Shown here piece by piece: positions 19,256 to 27,767 of a stretch of DNA of 64,000 nt (position 1 is the stretch's first letter; each line of letters opens with the position of its first letter). The notes below the pieces were generated by a model. It had not been told where the DNA came from and ran no database searches. It was given only the letters and a program-made list of their open reading frames with translations. Made by a program: the position numbers and the translations under genes. Source of the DNA: Cyclobacteriaceae bacterium (GTDB lineage Bacteria > Bacteroidota > Bacteroidia > Cytophagales > Cyclobacteriaceae); assembly GCA_019638355.1 (NCBI GenBank), contig JAHBTY010000003.1:186001-250000 (forward strand), read 5' to 3'.

Positions 19256-19272
19256 TTTAGAACGATTCTAAT
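19256..19272. promoter_or_regulatory. Palindromic operator of the haem locus, copy 1
   Basis: TTTAGAA-CGA-TTCTAAT, 10 bases before the GTG of the TonB receptor and overlapping the start of its AATCTTTG -7 element. The same palindrome occurs at 23550 and 23970. A repressor bound here would block the promoter. The regulator is not identified; a Fur-like or DtxR-like metal sensor is an inference. Confidence 0.7.
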
Positions 19273-19281
19273 CTTTGTGCC

Positions 19282-21309
19282 GTGAAAAAAATATCCCTCA
19301 TGCTGCTTTATCTGTTTCCCTTTCTTTCGAACGGGCAGGCAGGCGATACTTTAAAAACCTCGGTGCTGGAAGAGGTTGTGATAACGGGTCAATTCGAACC
19401 CCAATCAGCGCACAAATCAGTTTACCAGGTAAAAACAATTCCGCTGGAGCGACTTGCTGCAAGGGGTGCCGTGCGGCTGCAAGATGTGTTGAACACAGAA
19501 CTCAACATTCGTTTTTCGCAAGACCTTGCTTTGGGTGGTTCCAATCTTTCCATGCAAGGGTTGGCTGGCCAAAATGTAAAAGTGTTGATTGACGGTGTAC
19601 CGATGATCGGGCGGCAAGGAACATCCAACGAAATCAACATCAATCAACTGAATGTAAATGCGATTGAACGTGTGGAAATAATTGAAGGACCCATGTCGGT
19701 GGTATATGGTGCCGATGCCCTGGCGGGTGTAATCAACATTATTACCAAAAAAGCTGTTGATGGAAAGTTTGAACTGCAAGCTAAAGTACATGAAGAAACT
19801 GTTGGGAGTGAGTACGGTTGGAACACGGGAATTCATAACGAGAGCGTGGGCCTGGGCTTTTCAAAAAGCAATTGGCGCACACGTGCTGATGTTAGCCGAA
19901 ATTATTTTGGTGGTTGGCAGGGTAGTGCTGCAGGTCGCGATAAACAGTGGCACCCCAAAACCCAATACCTGGCAAGTGGTTTGGTGGGCTACAACAAAAA
20001 CAAATCGGATGTGTACTATCGGGCGGATTATTTGTTTGAGGACATCTACAATCCGGGTGGGTTTATAAATGGCGAAGCATTAGACCAAACTTATTATACC
20101 AACCGGTTAATGCAACAACTACAAGGAGCACACACATTTTCGAGCCGGCTAAATTTTAATGGAGTTTTATCATACACTAACTACGCGCGCGAAACACAGA
20201 CCACTACCGTAAATGAAGCTACTAACCAAAGCAGATTAGCGTTAGGCCCCGGCTTGCAGGATGTAACAAAGTTTAACGGTGTTACACTGCGCAGCACATT
20301 TCAATACAAAGTGAATGAAAAAATTTCGCTGCAACCAGGTATCGATGTCAACTATGAAACCGGCAGTGGTGGACGAATAAAAACCGGTACACAAGCCGTT
20401 GGTGATTATGCCGTGTTCCTTTCCGCTGAATGGAAAGTAACTGATTGGTTACAGGTTAGGCCCGGAGTGCGTTCTGTTTATAATTCTGTTTATCTGGCTC
20501 CTCCGGTTATTCCTTCTGTAAACACAAAGATTAAGTTGGGCGAAAGGCAAGATTTACGTTTATCGTACGGCCGTGGATTTCGTGCACCTTCCTTACGGGA
20601 ATTGTATTTTGATTTCTTTGATGCGAGTCATTCCATTGAAGGCAATCCAAATCTTGAATCGGAATTATCGCACAGTATAAATGCATCATTTAACTGGCGA
20701 TTGATTGAAGGTGATGGATTTACATACACTTCTATCCTGGGTGGATTTTACAACTCGGTAAAAAATATGATTGGCTATGGCCAGAAGCCCGGCAATAACC
20801 TGATCACGACTTATCTCAATATTGATCGCTACCAAACAAAAGGGTTTACCTGGAATAATACATTGAAGGGTAACGTGTGGGAACTGAATGCTGGTTATGC
20901 ACTTACTGCTCGGTTTAATCAATACAGTGAAAGCTATTCTGATCTGGAAGAATTTCAGTGGTCGCCTGAAATAACTACTGCCGCTTCTTATCGCATTCCA
21001 CGCGCAGGTTTAAAGTTTTCAGTGTACCACAAGTTTACCGGGGTTACGCCATTCTTTGAATTGGTTACAGTTGATGGCCAACCAGTAGCCCGACTGGCCC
21101 AAACCGATTCATTCCATTGGGCCGATTTCACCATTCAAAAAGATTTTGGTAAGTCGGTTTCGGTAACAGCCGGTGCGCGCAATCTCTTTGATATTAACAG
21201 CATTAATACAACTTCCGTAGCCACAGGCGTACACACAAGTGGCGGGGCACGCCCGATTGGTTATGGCCGATCTTATTTTTTAAATGTTTCCTATTCTTTA
21301 ACCAAATAA
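19282..21309 (+). CDS. TonB-dependent haem receptor
   Basis: 675 residues. The signal peptide is 1-19, with a plug domain at about 30-150 (VLIDGVPMIGRQGT; IERVEIIEGPMSVVYGADAL) and then a 22-strand barrel ending in an aromatic-rich strand. The barrel carries FRAP (433-436) and NPNL (455-458) with His450 between them, the arrangement of haem/haemoglobin receptors such as HemR and HasR. It imports haem across the outer membrane with TonB energy. The start is GTG. It is followed after 12 bases by hmuY, so both form one transcript ending at the 22773 terminator. The operator at 19256 should control it. Confidence 0.88.
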   Translation: MKKISLMLLYLFPFLSNGQAGDTLKTSVLEEVVITGQFEPQSAHKSVYQVKTIPLERLAARGAVRLQDVLNTELNIRFSQDLALGGSNLSMQGLAGQNVKVLIDGVPMIGRQGTSNEININQLNVNAIERVEIIEGPMSVVYGADALAGVINIITKKAVDGKFELQAKVHEETVGSEYGWNTGIHNESVGLGFSKSNWRTRADVSRNYFGGWQGSAAGRDKQWHPKTQYLASGLVGYNKNKSDVYYRADYLFEDIYNPGGFINGEALDQTYYTNRLMQQLQGAHTFSSRLNFNGVLSYTNYARETQTTTVNEATNQSRLALGPGLQDVTKFNGVTLRSTFQYKVNEKISLQPGIDVNYETGSGGRIKTGTQAVGDYAVFLSAEWKVTDWLQVRPGVRSVYNSVYLAPPVIPSVNTKIKLGERQDLRLSYGRGFRAPSLRELYFDFFDASHSIEGNPNLESELSHSINASFNWRLIEGDGFTYTSILGGFYNSVKNMIGYGQKPGNNLITTYLNIDRYQTKGFTWNNTLKGNVWELNAGYALTARFNQYSESYSDLEEFQWSPEITTAASYRIPRAGLKFSVYHKFTGVTPFFELVTVDGQPVARLAQTDSFHWADFTIQKDFGKSVSVTAGARNLFDINSINTTSVATGVHTSGGARPIGYGRSYFLNVSYSLTK

Positions 21310-21321
21310 ATAATAATTAAC

Positions 21322-22755
21322 ATGAATTCAGTTTTTAAAAATGCATTGAGTGCGATAGCGATAGGCGGACTTTTATTTTTTACTGCGTGTAAAGAAGACC
21401 CGGAGTTGCCGGAAAATCTCACAGTGTTTCAATCTACCGAATTGGGTATATCAGATACGGAAACATCGTTGGAAATACTCATAAAACTTACCCGACCTGC
21501 TACCGAAGCAGCCTCTGTTACCATAAGTGTAGAAGAAATTGGCCTTACCTATGGTACCGATTATACAACCTCACCCGTGGCATCTTCCAATCTGATTACA
21601 ATTCCGGTGGCTGTGGGTGATACCGAAATAAAATTTACCGTAGCAAAAACACCCACAGCCCTTTTTGATGGCGATGAGTCGTTAGTGTTTACGATCATAA
21701 ATGCGCACACATCATTGGTAGTGGGTGAAAAAAAACAACTTACGCTTTCTTTTGCCGAAATAGTTTCAACTGCGGGCGCGATGGAAATTAATGGTGGTGG
21801 AGCTACCTACCCTAACAAAGTGTTTATTGATTTAAGCGCGAACAGGCAAACTGCCGTTGCCCGCACTGCGTGGGACCTTGGTTTTTATACCGGTAATGAT
21901 TTTCGCGTGATCTTGAATTCATCGAATGGAATGCTGGCCTACGCATTGAATAAAACCGATCTTACAACCGTTACCAATGCTGATACCGCAGTACTTCGTA
22001 GCCGGTTATCTGCCGATGCAATTTTTGCAGCCATTACCTCCAACCCGGTTCCAGATTGGGTACCAACATCTATAAATTGGATTGATGATCCGGCTGGTGA
22101 TTTAACTAAAACTGCGGTTGCGCAGATTTCAGCTACCGCATCGGAAAACAAGGTGTATATAATTAACCGTGGTGCAGGCCCCGGCACTCCGGCACCAGCG
22201 TTGGGCTGGAAGAAAATTCGCATAATCCGCAACGGAAACGGCTACACCTTACAACATGCAGATATCAACGCTACAACATTTTCTGAGATTCAAATAACCA
22301 AAAACGCTGCACTGGAATTTCAATATGTAAGTTTTAGTAACGGAAGTGTTTCGGTAGAACCTTTGCGCGAACGGTGGGATATTGCATGGACCGGCTTTAA
22401 TAACTCTACCAATTTTGGCTCGGGCCCCATTCCTTATTACTTTCAGGATATAATCCTTCAAAATAGGGTTGGTGTTCAAACAGTTCAAATCTTAAACACT
22501 ACCAAGACGTACGAAGCATTTGCTGAAGCAGACCTGACTGGTTTGGATTTTGGTGTACAATCGCAAATAAAAATTGGCGCTAACTGGCGCTCAGGTGGCG
22601 GTCCAGGTACAGCACCTGCCATTCGTACCGATCGTTTCTATGTAATTAAAGATGCCGATGGCAATTATTATAAACTGAAGTTTACAGCCCTTACTACCAG
22701 TGGCGAGCGCGGCCGACCACAGTTTGAATTTGCATTACTTAAAAAAGGTGTTTGA
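21322..22755 (+). CDS. hmuY: HmuY family haem-binding surface lipoprotein
   Basis: 477 residues. The lipoprotein signal peptide has lipobox FFTAC (Cys23) followed by K-E-D, matching the Bacteroidota lipoprotein export signal for surface display. Residues about 35-145 form a Calx-beta-like sandwich. Residues about 150-477 match HmuY (ARTAWDLGFYTGNDFRVIL; RWDIAWTGF), the haemophore of Porphyromonas that strips haem from host proteins and passes it to the TonB receptor. At 477 residues it is about twice the length of classical HmuY, partly because of the extra N-terminal domain. The haem-ligand histidines of P. gingivalis HmuY could not be aligned by eye. Confidence 0.83.
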   Translation: MNSVFKNALSAIAIGGLLFFTACKEDPELPENLTVFQSTELGISDTETSLEILIKLTRPATEAASVTISVEEIGLTYGTDYTTSPVASSNLITIPVAVGDTEIKFTVAKTPTALFDGDESLVFTIINAHTSLVVGEKKQLTLSFAEIVSTAGAMEINGGGATYPNKVFIDLSANRQTAVARTAWDLGFYTGNDFRVILNSSNGMLAYALNKTDLTTVTNADTAVLRSRLSADAIFAAITSNPVPDWVPTSINWIDDPAGDLTKTAVAQISATASENKVYIINRGAGPGTPAPALGWKKIRIIRNGNGYTLQHADINATTFSEIQITKNAALEFQYVSFSNGSVSVEPLRERWDIAWTGFNNSTNFGSGPIPYYFQDIILQNRVGVQTVQILNTTKTYEAFAEADLTGLDFGVQSQIKIGANWRSGGGPGTAPAIRTDRFYVIKDADGNYYKLKFTALTTSGERGRPQFEFALLKKGV

Positions 22756-22772
22756 TAAATTTCAACTAACCA

Positions 22773-22809
22773 AAATGGCTGATCAACCGCAGATCAGCCA
22801 TTTCTTTTT
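22773..22809 (+). terminator. Rho-independent terminator after hmuY
   Basis: Perfect 12-bp stem (22773-22784 with 22792-22803; core AATGGCTGATC), 7-base loop and a T-rich tail. It ends directly at the ATG of the DUF3817 gene at 22810, so that gene must be expressed by read-through or by a promoter not seen here. Confidence 0.85.
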
Positions 22810-23118
22810 ATGAAAGAGCTTAAACTGTATCGAAGAATTGCATTAGCCGAAGGTATTTCCTTTCTGGTCTTATTATTAATTGCCATGCCCCTCAAATACT
22901 ATTTCGACATGCCGATGGCTGTTAAAGCGGTGGGCTGGGTACATGGTTTGTTATTTATTGCCTACATACTGCTAACCTTTTCGGTTGTAGGTACTATGCA
23001 GTGGAACTGGTTCAGTACACTGGTAGCGCTGGCCGTTTCATTAATACCCGCGGGTACTTTTTGGTTGGATAAATCCCTGAAGAAACGTGAAAAGGAATTG
23101 ACCAATCAAACGAGATAG
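22810..23118 (+). CDS. DUF3817 membrane protein
   Basis: 102 residues with three predicted membrane helices (about 13-32, 42-62 and 70-88). It matches the DUF3817 family (RRIALAEGISFLVLLLIAMP; KAVGWVHGLLFIAYILL). Function unknown. The start codon abuts the hmuY terminator tail. It may be expressed at low level by read-through from the haem operon (inference). Confidence 0.85.
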   Translation: MKELKLYRRIALAEGISFLVLLLIAMPLKYYFDMPMAVKAVGWVHGLLFIAYILLTFSVVGTMQWNWFSTLVALAVSLIPAGTFWLDKSLKKREKELTNQTR

Positions 23119-23123
23119 CTCGC

Positions 23124-23324
23124 TTAAATCGCCTTTACCAACTTGAACGGGAACAACAAAATTCCTTTAATCAAACGGAAGACTACATCCAGTGTAAAGC
23201 CAACGATTCGGAAAGGCAACAGAATTAGCCACACAATTGGAAATAGAAAAAGCATAATCAGCGCAAGCGGCCAGCATAGCACCAGCAAAATAAACCACAG
23301 GGCAAGGGATAGGAATATTCTCAT
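23124..23324 (-). CDS. Small hydrophobic membrane protein
   Basis: 66 residues beginning MRIFLSLALWFILLVLCWPL, nearly all hydrophobic with repeated LLPFR/LLFPFK amphipathic stretches. One long or two short membrane helices. The frame continues 21 codons upstream, but that part is charged and unlike the rest, so the inner ATG is preferred. Not recognised. It converges on the DUF3817 gene, with 5 bases between stops. Confidence 0.55.
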   Translation of the reverse strand: MRIFLSLALWFILLVLCWPLALIMLFLFPIVWLILLPFRIVGFTLDVVFRLIKGILLFPFKLVKAI

Positions 23325-23541
23325 TTTTTTTTTGAATCGATTTCTTATATGCTCATGAACAAAATCGGGCCAAACAAGAATACGCATAAAATGAACTTAA
23401 TTACCGGTCGTAATCAGATAGCCTGGGCAAATTTGTACACTATTGCGAACGATTTTGAACAACAACTTTAATGGGCACAATTATTCCGGTTAAGGACGTA
23501 AATAGGATAGCCCGTGCACGCATTCTTGAGATTCCACCAGC

Positions 23542-23549
23542 TAACTTTG
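23542..23549 (+). promoter_or_regulatory. -7 element (TAACTTTG) of the DUF6686-like gene
   Basis: Perfect TAnnTTTG. The haem-locus operator follows immediately at 23550, so it covers the expected transcription start. Confidence 0.65.
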
Positions 23550-23566
23550 TTTAGAATAATTCTAAA
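23550..23566. promoter_or_regulatory. Palindromic operator of the haem locus, copy 2
   Basis: Perfect 7-3-7 palindrome TTTAGAA-TAA-TTCTAAA, placed between the -7 element (23542-23549) and the ATG at 23569. It is the best copy in the window and defines the consensus. Confidence 0.8.
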
Positions 23567-23568
23567 TA

Positions 23569-23898
23569 ATGAGCTGTAATTTCAATATAATCGCGGAGTG
23601 CCCTAAAGGTTACATTGGCCAGTGCACGTGCTGCAACGAGTATAATTTTGCCTTCAACAACCTGCTGATCACCTTTTCAGAGGAACATTTGGCTTGGTTT
23701 TTCGATTGGCTGCTCCAAAATCGAAATAACCCCGATTTGTACTTTCCCTTAGCCAACGGACAGGACAGAATTTATCGCAGTCCGCTCGATAATTTATTTA
23801 TTACCTTCAATGACAATGAGTTAGAAGAACTTGAGCTGCTTTATGGCCAGGTACAAATGGTTTGGCAAGCTCGTAGCATTGTAAGCTCAAAGGTTTAA
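23569..23898 (+). CDS. Small Cys-rich protein, DUF6686-like, in the haem regulon
   Basis: 109 residues, cytoplasmic. The N-terminus carries five Cys (residues 3, 11, 19, 21 and 22) in the pattern C-x7-C-x7-CTCC, followed by an acidic helical body (FSEEHLAWFFDWLLQ; DNELEELELLYGQ). It resembles the DUF6686 family, whose function is unknown. It carries the same operator as the receptor and hmuT genes, so it is predicted to be iron- or haem-responsive. The Cys cluster could bind a metal or haem (inference). Monocistronic. Confidence 0.7.
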   Translation: MSCNFNIIAECPKGYIGQCTCCNEYNFAFNNLLITFSEEHLAWFFDWLLQNRNNPDLYFPLANGQDRIYRSPLDNLFITFNDNELEELELLYGQVQMVWQARSIVSSKV

Positions 23899-23930
23899 AA
23901 CTGCCGATTAGGGTATTTTTTTAACATTAA

Positions 23931-23947
23931 CTTGGATTAATTCTAAA
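23931..23947. promoter_or_regulatory. Degenerate upstream operator half of hmuT
   Basis: CTTGGAT-TAA-TTCTAAA: a perfect right arm but only four of six inner left-arm bases match. It lies upstream of the hmuT -7 element, while the better copy lies downstream, so a regulator could bind both sides. Confidence 0.4.
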
Positions 23948-23969
23948 TAGTACCTTCATTTGCGATCTA

Positions 23970-23986
23970 TTTAGAAAGAATCTAAA
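23970..23986. promoter_or_regulatory. Palindromic operator of the haem locus, copy 3
   Basis: TTTAGAA-AGA-ATCTAAA, one mismatch from a perfect palindrome, ending 2 bases before the hmuT ATG. A TTCATTTG -7-like element lies at 23955-23962, so the operator covers the likely transcription start. Confidence 0.7.
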
Positions 23987-23988
23987 CA

Positions 23989-24816
23989 ATGCGATATTTC
24001 ATTCAACTCATGCTGTTGATTGCAGCATTATCGGCAAACGGACAGCGTATTATTACTGCGGGCAGCGCCATAACCGAAACCGTGTGTGCCCTGGGCGATT
24101 GTTCAAAAATCGTAGCCTCCGATCGTACCAGCTTGTACCCGACCGAAATTCAAAAACTTCCTTCTATTGGTTATAGAACCAGCATTAGTGCCGAAGGTAT
24201 TATCAGCCTTAAGCCAACCTTGTTTATAGTGGAAGAAGATTATGTAAAAGCAGAAGTGATTGAACAAATAAAATCGGTAGGGATAAAAGTAGTAGCCATT
24301 GAACGCACTTTTTCTTTTGAAGGTACCAGCAACATGATCGAAAAAATTGCTACTACATTAAATCGACCAGAAGAAGGCAAAAAGCTGATCGCAAAAATTG
24401 AAAACGAACTTAGTGAAGCAAAAAAAATAGTTAATCAATCAGGAACAACACCGCGCGTACTATGTGTATTCAACCGCGATAAGTCGGCATTGAATATTGC
24501 CGGTACCCAAACGTTTTCAGAAATTTTAAAATATGCAGGTGCTATTCCAGCCGTTACCGGTGTAGCGGGATACAAACCACTAAGCACAGAAACCCTTATT
24601 ACATCAAAAGCTGATTTCATTCTCATGTTTGAAAATGGAGTGCAGGCTTTAGGTGGTGTAGAAGGTGTGTTGGCAATACCAGGTGTACAACAATTACCAG
24701 CTGGACAAAAAAAACAAATCATTCAAATGGAAGGGATCAAGCTTTCCAACTTTGGGCCGCGTTTAGGTGAAGCGGTGAAAGAACTCGCCACGCAACTTCA
24801 TTCACCTAGGCCATAA
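23989..24816 (+). CDS. hmuT: Haem ABC transporter, periplasmic binding protein
   Basis: 275 residues. The signal peptide is 1-19 (ALSANGQ), then a BtuF/TroA-type two-lobed binding fold (ITAGSAITETVCALGDCSKIVASD; SLKPTLFIVEEDYVK; APKT-type C-lobe). It captures haem in the periplasm and delivers it to HmuUV. It is first of a tight four-gene operon, hmuT-hmuU-hmuV-hmuS, and its promoter carries operator copy 3. The assignment to haem rather than siderophore or cobalamin rests on the linked hmuS and hmuY. Confidence 0.9.
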   Translation: MRYFIQLMLLIAALSANGQRIITAGSAITETVCALGDCSKIVASDRTSLYPTEIQKLPSIGYRTSISAEGIISLKPTLFIVEEDYVKAEVIEQIKSVGIKVVAIERTFSFEGTSNMIEKIATTLNRPEEGKKLIAKIENELSEAKKIVNQSGTTPRVLCVFNRDKSALNIAGTQTFSEILKYAGAIPAVTGVAGYKPLSTETLITSKADFILMFENGVQALGGVEGVLAIPGVQQLPAGQKKQIIQMEGIKLSNFGPRLGEAVKELATQLHSPRP

Positions 24817-24817
24817 C

Positions 24818-25888
24818 ATGATTGCAGCCATTCCACTAAAACAACAGAAAGTAGGCACTGTACTGGGTGTACTCGCGGTTGTGTTGGTGATGGTTATGAT
24901 AGTAGCGTTAAGTATTGGTCAGGTTACCATTCCGGTAAAAGACATTGTCATGATCATGTTGTATAAAGCAGGACTTACTGCGCAAGAACCTGATGCAGTA
25001 TTGGAAACTGTTTTGTGGAGCATTCGCTTGCCGCGGATTATAATGACAGTTTTAATTGGTGCGGCATTGGCCATAAGTGGCGCAGCCATGCAAGGATTGT
25101 TTCGCAATCCATTGGTTGAACCCGGTTTGATTGGAGTATCAAGCGGTGCAGCATTGGCGGTGGTAGCCTTTGTTGTTTTTGGTATCGCATTAATTGGCAA
25201 TTCTGTTTTTGGAACCAGTGTAATGATGCCGGTGGCTGCATTTGTAGGTGGCTTTGTAGCAACCATGTTGGTGATGAAGATCGGTCAACAACTGGGTAAA
25301 ACAAACATCGCAGTTCTTATTCTGGGTGGAGTAGCCATCAATGCATTGGCTGGTGCGTTAATGGGGCTTGTAATTTTTTATGCAGATGAAAACCAACTGC
25401 GCATGTTCACTTTCTGGACGTTAGGTGACTTAGGCGGAGCTACGTGGCAAAAAGTTTTAATCACGGCTCCGGTTTTACTTTTATCAAGTGTGTGGATGTT
25501 AACGTATCAATTCCCCTTGAATGCTATTGCCATTGGCGAAGCAGAAGCGTTTCACATGGGTGTGGATGTAGAGCGCGTAAAAAAATCAATTGTGTTTTTT
25601 AGTGCACTGGCAGTAGGGGTAAGTGTATCGTTGGCAGGAATAATCGGGTTTATAGGATTAGTAGTTCCACATTTGGTGCGGGTAATTTTTCGTGCCGATA
25701 ACCGGTTGGTATTACCGGCTTCCTTATTAGGCGGCCCCATCTTGTTATTGCTTTCCGATTTATTGGCTCGTACACTGGTAGCGCCTACCGAACTCCCTAT
25801 TGGAGTTGTAACGGCTTTAATCGGAGCTCCCTTCTTTATTTTTTTGCTGATAAGAGCAAATCATAGAAATGAATTCAATACACGATGA
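24818..25888 (+). CDS. hmuU: Haem ABC transporter permease (FecCD family)
   Basis: 356 residues with about ten membrane helices. FecCD/BtuC signatures are visible: SIRLPRIIMTVLIGAALAIS, GAAMQGLFRNPLVEPGLIGV, the coupling segment GEAEAFHMGVDVERVK, and GFIGLVVPHLVR with the conserved Gly-Leu-Val-Val-Pro-His. It forms the inner-membrane channel with HmuV. It starts 1 base after the hmuT stop region and overlaps hmuV by 4 bases (ATGA). Confidence 0.92.
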   Translation: MIAAIPLKQQKVGTVLGVLAVVLVMVMIVALSIGQVTIPVKDIVMIMLYKAGLTAQEPDAVLETVLWSIRLPRIIMTVLIGAALAISGAAMQGLFRNPLVEPGLIGVSSGAALAVVAFVVFGIALIGNSVFGTSVMMPVAAFVGGFVATMLVMKIGQQLGKTNIAVLILGGVAINALAGALMGLVIFYADENQLRMFTFWTLGDLGGATWQKVLITAPVLLLSSVWMLTYQFPLNAIAIGEAEAFHMGVDVERVKKSIVFFSALAVGVSVSLAGIIGFIGLVVPHLVRVIFRADNRLVLPASLLGGPILLLLSDLLARTLVAPTELPIGVVTALIGAPFFIFLLIRANHRNEFNTR

Positions 25889-26691
25889 TTGAGGCGAAGC
25901 ATATCGGATTATCCATAAATGGAAAAACTTTACTGAATGATGTAAATCTTTCGGTACAACCCGGCACGTTTACCGCAATAGCCGGCCCGAATGGAGCAGG
26001 CAAAAGTTCATTGCTGAAAATTTTATCGCACGAGTTAACTCATTATAAAGGTGAGGTTCGCATCAATGATGTGGTTGCTTCTTCCTATTCGGTAGCACAA
26101 CTTTCGGCTGTTCGTGCGGTATTGCCACAACATTCGCATGTTCAATTTCCATTTACGGTAAAGCAAATTGTGGAGATGGGTAGGCAGCACTTTAAAACCA
26201 CTTCTAAAAATAACGATGCCTTACTGGAGGAAGTAATGGAACTTACCGGTGTGGTAGATTGGGCAAACCGAAACTACCTTACATTATCGGGTGGTGAACA
26301 GCAGCGCGTACAACTTACGCGCGTGTTGGCGCAAGTGTGGGATCAGAAAACCTTTCCGCGTTATGTGCTATTGGATGAACCAACTTCCAGTCTCGACATA
26401 GCACAACAACAACTTATTTTCAGCCTGGTAAAAAAAGCCTGCGAACGCAACATCGGTGTGCTGGCTGTTGTTCACGATTTAAATCAGGCAGTTCAGTTTG
26501 CCGATCATCTTTATTTTATGCGCAATGGTGCCGTAGTAGCACAAGGCGAATCCAAAACTGTATTTACGAAACCTATTATAGAAGAAACGTTTTGTTGTCG
26601 GGTAAATGTGTATCACGATCCGTGTACCAATTGTCCGTACATCGTACCTGAAAGAACTACATTATCTACTTTAAAAACTGCATCTGTATGA
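25885..26691 (+). CDS. hmuV: Haem ABC transporter ATPase
   Basis: 268 residues. Walker A GPNGAGKSS, Q-loop LPQHS, signature LSGGEQQRVQLTRVLAQVW, Walker B YVLLDEPTSSLD and the switch His in AVVHDLNQ. It powers HmuU. The C-terminal tail holds four Cys in a short stretch (FCCRVNVYHDPCTNCPYIVP), where many homologues have a HP-T-x-P turn; a metal- or redox-linked role is speculative. It overlaps hmuU and hmuS by 4 bases each. Confidence 0.92.
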   Translation: MIEAKHIGLSINGKTLLNDVNLSVQPGTFTAIAGPNGAGKSSLLKILSHELTHYKGEVRINDVVASSYSVAQLSAVRAVLPQHSHVQFPFTVKQIVEMGRQHFKTTSKNNDALLEEVMELTGVVDWANRNYLTLSGGEQQRVQLTRVLAQVWDQKTFPRYVLLDEPTSSLDIAQQQLIFSLVKKACERNIGVLAVVHDLNQAVQFADHLYFMRNGAVVAQGESKTVFTKPIIEETFCCRVNVYHDPCTNCPYIVPERTTLSTLKTASV

Positions 26692-27767
26692 ATTCAATTG
26701 CCGAACCTAAAACATCTACCTTACGGGCTGCCTGGGAAGAACTGAAAAAATCTAAACCAACCCTTCGCATTCGCGATTGCGCACAAGAACTTGGTGTAAG
26801 TGAAGCCGAGTTGTTAGCCACAACCGTAGGCGATTATACTACTAAACTGGAAGGCGATTGGACCAAACTTGTTGAGCGATTGCCCGAGTTAGGTCGGGTA
26901 ATGTCGCTTACGCGAAACGAAGGTTGTGTATTGGAACACAAAGGACCATTTCAAAAAATTGAAATTATGGGTCCCCCCACACATCGTATGGCAACGGTGA
27001 TTGGCCCAATTGAAACACGGGTTTTCTTTTCAGCCTGGAAATTTGGTTTTGCAGTTCGTTTGCAAACACCACACGGGTTACAACAAAGCATTCAGATTTT
27101 TGATGAGGCCGGAAATGCTGTAACAAAAATATTTCTGGTGGCTGCTGGCCCTGGTAATAAAGCCGGAAGTAATCAGGAAGCATTTGATAAATTGGTTAAT
27201 GATTTTACAGCCGCTGACCAATCAACCGAAATAGCGGTAACAGTGGTGCGCGAAATGCCTACCAAAGCCATTGCCGATGTTGATAAAGAAACGTTGCTGA
27301 CTGAATGGGAAAACATGAAAGACACGCACGATTTTTTTGGAATGTTGCGTAAGCACCAGGTAAATCGTCTGGATGCAGTTGTAATATCGGAGGGTAGGTT
27401 TTCAGAACGCATTCAAAAATCATCTTTAAAGAATTTACTGGAGACTGCAGCCAGCGAACATTTACCCATCATGGTGTTTGCCGGAAGTCGTGGAAACATT
27501 CAGATCCACCAGGGAAAAATTCAAACCATTCGGGTGATGGATAACTGGTTGAACATTCTCGATCCGGATTTTAATATGCACTTGCGTGAAGACCTGATCG
27601 ACTCGGCCTGGATTGTGAAGAAGCCTACTACCGATGGTGTGGTTACTGCCATTGAAGTATTTGATAAGAATAAAGAAATGATTGTGCAGTTCTTTGGGTT
27701 ACGTAAACCGGGTATTCCGGAGTTGGAAAAATGGCGCACACTGGTTGCCAGTTTACCACGCGCCTGA
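26688..27767 (+). CDS. hmuS: Cytoplasmic haem-handling protein (HemS/ChuS/HmuS family)
   Basis: 359 residues built of two similar halves (about 20-180 and 190-355), as in HemS/ChuS. Family blocks include LRAAWEELKKSKPTLRIRDC, the LGRVMSLTRNEGCVLEHKG segment and FGMLRKHQVNRLDA. Members bind haem from HmuTUV and either pass it on or open the ring to release iron. Last gene of the operon. No terminator is visible before the next gene, 58 bases downstream. Confidence 0.9.
   Translation: MNSIAEPKTSTLRAAWEELKKSKPTLRIRDCAQELGVSEAELLATTVGDYTTKLEGDWTKLVERLPELGRVMSLTRNEGCVLEHKGPFQKIEIMGPPTHRMATVIGPIETRVFFSAWKFGFAVRLQTPHGLQQSIQIFDEAGNAVTKIFLVAAGPGNKAGSNQEAFDKLVNDFTAADQSTEIAVTVVREMPTKAIADVDKETLLTEWENMKDTHDFFGMLRKHQVNRLDAVVISEGRFSERIQKSSLKNLLETAASEHLPIMVFAGSRGNIQIHQGKIQTIRVMDNWLNILDPDFNMHLREDLIDSAWIVKKPTTDGVVTAIEVFDKNKEMIVQFFGLRKPGIPELEKWRTLVASLPRA

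Follow-up and report, generated by a model that had tools for sequence, protein, structure and literature searches.

Palindromes before the haem-uptake genes of a Cyclobacteriaceae bacterium as predicted Fur operators of a wider iron regulon

Promoters and operators of the Bacteroidota take forms peculiar to the phylum, whose Fur regulon is poorly charted. The closest described system is that of Riemerella anatipestifer, for which a Fur box was predicted as ATTTAGAATTATTCTAAAT, with the copy ATTTAAAATTATTCTAAAT at hmuR, and for which electrophoretic mobility shift assays showed binding of the purified Fur protein to four promoters that contain putative boxes (Guo et al. 2017, PMC5609570); the box table of that paper also contains several loose boxes. 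PgFur/Har of Porphyromonas gingivalis is reported not to bind the E. coli box (PMC6613475). We analysed a stretch of 64,000 nucleotides (the window) from a Cyclobacteriaceae bacterium (GenBank assembly GCA_019638355.1, contig JAHBTY010000003.1, positions 186,001 to 250,000), in which palindromes precede three units of a haem-uptake locus, namely a haem receptor gene with hmuY, a DUF6686 gene and hmuTUVS. These palindromes are very probably Fur operators of the Bacteroidota type, TTTAGAATnATTCTAAA, at which iron-loaded Fur would repress the haem units together with a wider iron regulon, a reading that is drawn from sequence comparison.

Form, position and conservation of the palindromes

The palindromes in the window are real. 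The initial annotation had described three copies of a 17-base pattern (TTTAGAANNNTTCTAAA) and a weaker fourth, and all four were recovered: the copy at 23550 is the only exact match in the window, the copies at 19256 (final base T) and 23970 (3' arm ATCTAAA) have one mismatch each and the copy at 23931, 39 bases above that at 23970, has three. Its further statement that no similarly placed copy occurs elsewhere also held, as a scan of the window gave no other copy with zero or one mismatch. At up to three mismatches the window total (10) is close to the shuffle mean (9.43), so that the copies with zero or one mismatch alone stand out. The two best copies share the arms TTTAGA and TCTAAA around a 5-base spacer, not 7-base arms around three bases, and the palindrome is best read as TTTAGA-N5-TCTAAA (below, the site). 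From the genome count, about 0.36 places with at most one mismatch to this form are expected per 64 kb, against three within 4.7 kb in the window; all the palindromes sit before genes of the haem locus.

The established -7 promoter form is TAnnTTTG. A position at or just after this element, as originally claimed, was found at 23550 and, more loosely, at 23970, but not at 19256, where the best candidate overlaps the end of the palindrome (Table 1). The GTG start of the receptor gene lies only 4 bases behind that candidate (window 19270-19284), and the receptor mRNA may therefore be leaderless.

Five relatives (L353-L357) were fetched by HmuT, whose identity over the matched part ranges from 95 down to 77%; among named relatives the nearest is the Cyclobacteriaceae metagenome-assembled genome ACE_BAC22. 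The flanks have changed in these loci, yet both hmuT palindromes and the intervening TTCATTTG are kept, with one further change in the 23931 copy of L354. Where the respective gene was aligned, the receptor copy is kept in four loci and the DUF6686 copy in three.

The spacer was found to be strict when spacers of 0 to 12 bases were compared in 80 named hmuT loci (981,870 bases): 40 exact sites have the 5-base spacer against 0-2 at each other spacer, and at up to one mismatch these numbers are 78 and 2-6. At least one site occurs in 47 of the 80 loci; those without a site include Chitinophaga, Niastella and most Flavobacterium loci. Paired boxes, both in the window (23931 and 23970) and in the named loci, lie 39-40 or 57-60 bases apart from start to start, two spacings that differ by about two helical turns.

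The site also precedes sufB in this genome, and sufB served as a gauge in other genomes. A SufB match was obtained in 86 of 98 genomes of the order, and in the 200 bases upstream of the gene a site was found in 33 of the 86 at up to one mismatch and in 63 at up to two, compared with 0.23 and 4.2 in shuffles, which for all upstream regions in this analysis preserve base composition only. Again the spacer was strict, with 33 sites at five bases (up to one mismatch) against 0-3 at each of the other twelve spacers. Most of the sufB sites counted at up to two mismatches start 0 to 14 bases behind a TAnnTTTG element. Elsewhere in the class, 86 of the 130 genomes with a SufB match were used, and the site occurs in 15 of these 86 upstream regions, with 0-3 at other spacers.

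Genes associated with the site

The initial annotation had proposed a genome-wide scan for hits at iron genes, and its outcome was mixed. The 4.49-Mb genome has 25 places with at most one mismatch to the site and 39 for the reversed pattern used as a control; with a total below that control, the number alone is uninformative. Nine of the 25 places lie upstream of iron or haem genes, eight lie inside genes and eight are intergenic without a counted iron link, and not all of the 25 were taken as targets. The nine precede the haem receptor gene, the DUF6686 gene, hmuT, feoA, sufB, a TonB receptor gene (two sites at a distance of 39 bases), a multihaem cytochrome c gene, whose start lies 205 bases on, and an SdhC-like gene, at a distance of 86 bases. 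The relation of the last to SdhC rests on its likeness to a gene of genome G018, whose own SdhC match is just below the Pfam cut-off. The exact and conserved places in the genome are the iron-linked ones, and the site stands at promoters of iron-uptake genes both here (hmuR, hmuT, feoA and the TonB receptor gene) and in many relatives.

Exact sites were found in 14 of 19 genomes, this one included: 32 in total, of which 29 are intergenic and 25 have a gene within 250 bases. Iron or haem functions adjoin 18 of the 32, or 21 when DUF6686 and a solute-binding protein are counted, these links being assigned by judgement and not blind. The 18 comprise hmuT (3), TonB receptor or PepSY genes (5) and CbiX-type chelatases (3), all counted as iron-linked, and multihaem cytochromes (3), haem oxygenase, HemA, SufB and SdhC. 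The reversed pattern has 22 sites; among the 17 that were examined, 3 are intergenic. The haem-acquisition regulon originally claimed is thus too narrow, since the same site precedes feoAB, the TonB receptor gene and sufB here and haem-protein genes in relatives, and a regulon restricted to haem was set aside. A multihaem cytochrome c gene has the site 65 to 205 bases ahead of it in four genomes (G000:C4:485292, G015 (L035), G013 (L039) and G005 (L041)); iron-using proteins may therefore belong to the regulon, perhaps with opposite sign.

The site also ties DUF6686, a family of unknown function, to iron control. Across the order, 25 DUF6686 loci were found in 23 of the 98 genomes, and 8 of the 25 have the site at up to one mismatch (0.04 expected). 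Judged from the printed protein starts, several neighbours of these genes resemble HmuY, HmuT, ferritin, PepSY, a TonB receptor or a Fur paralogue. The CxxC motif and one Glu are invariant in an alignment of 15 members. A second Fur paralogue stands directly before the DUF6686 gene on the same strand in two genomes (G036:C1:25356-26180 and G052:C9:100374-101195). In some DUF6686 units (L222, L223, L224 and L225) the box lies about 8 bases above the -7 element, not behind it, and in L225 a ferritin-like gene follows.

Table 1. Predicted operators, -7 elements and genes of the haem-uptake locus (window positions)
Feature	Positions	Strand	Remarks
Fur box (predicted), haem receptor (hmuR-like)-hmuY unit	19256..19272	+	TTTAGAACGATTCTAAT; conserved in L353-L356
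Best -7 candidate of the receptor gene	19270..19277	+	AATCTTTG; one mismatch to TAnnTTTG; overlaps palindrome end; GTG start 4 bases on
TonB-dependent receptor, HmuR-like	19282..21309	+	Pfam TonB barrel and Plug
HmuY-family haem-binding protein	21322..22755	+	Pfam HmuY, 93 bits
DUF3817 membrane protein after hmuY	22810..23118	+	presumed place in the transcript
-7 element of the DUF6686 gene	23542..23549	+	TAACTTTG; directly before the 23550 palindrome
Fur box (predicted), DUF6686 gene	23550..23566	+	TTTAGAATAATTCTAAA; exact; conserved in L353, L354, L357
DUF6686 protein, 109 aa, CxxC	23569..23898	+	Pfam DUF6686, 38.5 bits (cut-off 23.9)
Weaker upstream Fur box (predicted), hmuT	23931..23947	+	CTTGGATTAATTCTAAA; reads TTTGGATTAATTCTAAA in L355, L356
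-7 candidate of hmuT	23955..23962	+	TTCATTTG; one mismatch; between both hmuT boxes, 7 bases before 23970
Main Fur box (predicted), hmuT	23970..23986	+	TTTAGAAAGAATCTAAA; exact for TTTAGA-N5-TCTAAA; conserved in L353-L357
HmuT, periplasmic binding protein	23989..24816	+	domain annotation
HmuU, FecCD-family permease	24818..25888	+	domain annotation
HmuV, ABC ATPase	25885..26691	+	domain annotation
HmuS, HemS/ChuX type	26688..27767	+	domain annotation

The regulator and the alternatives

Two Fur-family and two DtxR-family genes are encoded in the genome. An Asn/Arg change at the ATVYR motif separates PerR from Fur boxes, and in this motif of the one close Fur (G000:C2:72679-73140; 99 bits to Pfam FUR) Asn takes the place of the Arg of solved Fur proteins. 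The H/HDH/E ligands known from solved Fur proteins that sense iron are kept in it, and its closest solved chains are Fur proteins. Its gene stands in the order relA-fur-STAS-purA, an arrangement (relA or another gene, fur, STAS, purA) that was found in four loci of the order; in Flavobacterium psychrophilum, fur is described upstream of purA (PMC9331221).

We infer that Fur is the regulator from the published Riemerella box and from the pattern of presence of Fur and DtxR. At up to two mismatches the sufB site was found in 60 of 71 genomes with a close Fur, compared with 3 (G021, G045 and G096) of the 15 genomes in which Fur is absent or less than 60% identical to the query, a class of our own grouping. 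The Fisher value of this association is 2.6e-6 at up to two mismatches and 0.04 at up to one, with kinship ignored. All seven SufB-bearing genomes without a stand-alone DtxR (G015, G020, G030, G032, G035, G051 and G107) keep the sufB site; three of them retain a DtxR domain as part of a larger fusion protein.

The mode of action proposed here is modelled on the Riemerella counterpart. With iron present, a dimer of the close Fur would bind the palindromes and exclude RNA polymerase by covering the -7 element or the bases transcribed first. With iron absent, Fur would release and the receptor-hmuY, DUF6686 and hmuTUVS units would be expressed, with feoAB, the TonB receptor gene and the suf genes derepressed along with them. 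The repression by a metal- or haem-sensing dimer that had been suggested at the outset thus holds, as a prediction, for the metal-sensing dimer, with an operator placed to block transcription, and is disfavoured for a haem sensor. If Fur acts in this way, the site would be a dependable marker of iron-controlled genes in Cytophagales and their neighbours.

Several observations weigh against control by Fur. The reversed pattern has more places in the genome than the site, and of the 25 places of the site 16 lack a counted iron link. The Fisher value takes no account of kinship and is weak when no more than one mismatch is allowed. Genome G021 (closed, 98% complete) has a sufB site and gave no Fur-family match on recheck, and G045 (84% complete) has one without a close Fur. 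Conversely, 11 of the 71 genomes with a close Fur lack a sufB site, four of them in family f11. The site was found upstream of fur itself in 0 of 30 regions at up to one mismatch, and autoregulation of fur through it was set aside.

It is very unlikely that the sites are bound instead by a regulator of the DtxR/MntR/IdeR type that senses iron or manganese, although the genome has two such genes, palindromes with the same half-sites occur at members of the family within the order and G021 keeps the site with DtxR and without Fur. At DtxR-family genes the spacer of the palindromes is 4 bases (27 of 69 upstream regions at up to one mismatch, against 1 of 69 at five bases), at sufB, DUF6686 and hmu genes it is 5 bases, the sufB site is kept in the seven genomes that lack a stand-alone DtxR, and in Riemerella it is Fur that binds this box (PMC5609570); on spacer and presence pattern DtxR was set aside. 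Likewise very unlikely is a regulator that senses haem and serves haem genes alone. The window's three best sites do belong to haem genes, and the P. gingivalis Fur homologue Har is reported to bind haemin (PMC4222909), but feoA and sufB have the site as well, and Har is reported there to have Cys-Pro in place of the HxH motif, whereas the Fur of this genome keeps HDH. That the sites are chance A/T-rich palindromes is next to inconceivable. Such an origin would agree with the window matches at up to three mismatches, which equal the shuffle mean, with genome counts that do not exceed those of the reversed pattern and with genome G017, which has no Fur and has five exact sites, none of them counted as iron-linked. 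It is opposed by the position of the sites, their strict spacer and the genes that they adjoin, and for the three main sites it is refuted by conservation through diverged flanks.

Operator spacing and comparison with known boxes

Upstream of DtxR-family genes of the order, TTTAGA-N4-TCTAAA occurs exactly in 12 cases, and its 27 matches at up to one mismatch compare with 0.17 expected; the 69 regions were taken from the top of the list, with one cut locus (L147) omitted, and examples are L127, L134, L137 and L442. In the genome studied, mntR is followed by an NRAMP gene, on account of which the DtxR/MntR regulon was assigned to manganese, and is preceded by the palindrome TTTAGACTAACCTAAA. The same half-sites one base closer at these genes suggest that operator spacing may separate iron from manganese control, and we lean slightly towards the view that two metal regulators share the half-site TTTAGA/TCTAAA and that a single spacing base sets the iron sites of Fur (five bases) apart from the manganese sites of DtxR/MntR (four). 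If this is true, a slip of one base would put a promoter under the control of the other metal, and the shared half-site offers a simple way to test how two such regulators avoid each other's promoters. No report of the spacer difference was found in the open-access literature, most subscription journals being outside this scope. The second DtxR paralogue (G000:C1:989597-990262) has its own variant palindrome, GTTAGATGCCTCTAAT, upstream, with a divergent gene for a di-haem oxidoreductase-like protein beside it.

Compared with the DtxR/MntR-type operators of the same order, the window sites thus share the half-sites and differ in the spacer, which is five and not four bases. The PerR box is TTATAATnATTATAA and the core of the classical Fur box is TGATAATnATTATCA. 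With the PerR box the site shares the 7-1-7 arrangement and the first T-T-A of each half; it differs in the fourth base of each half, which is G and not T, and in that the targets here are iron genes. With the classical Fur box (GATAATGATAATCATTATC as quoted in PMC5609570) it shares the 7-1-7 inverted repeat and the AATnATT centre, whereas the half-site is TTAGAAT here (at 23550) and TGATAAT there, in line with the initial view that the palindrome is unlike the E. coli box. PgFur/Har of P. gingivalis is likewise a Fur-family protein linked to hmu control, but is reported to differ in having no HxH sensor motif (PMC4222909). The agreement is closest with the Fur box of R. anatipestifer: the 17-base core TTTAGAATnATTCTAAA is the same, with the 23550 copy exact and those at 19256 and 23970 showing small departures, and there too the box is found at hmuR and at a ferric-dicitrate-type receptor gene, near start codons (PMC5609570). 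The difference lies in the lineage, Flavobacteriales there and Cytophagales here, and in the targets, which here also include, by sequence, sufB, feoA, DUF6686 and haem-protein genes. From this match, the phylum's Fur box would here be found in a new lineage.

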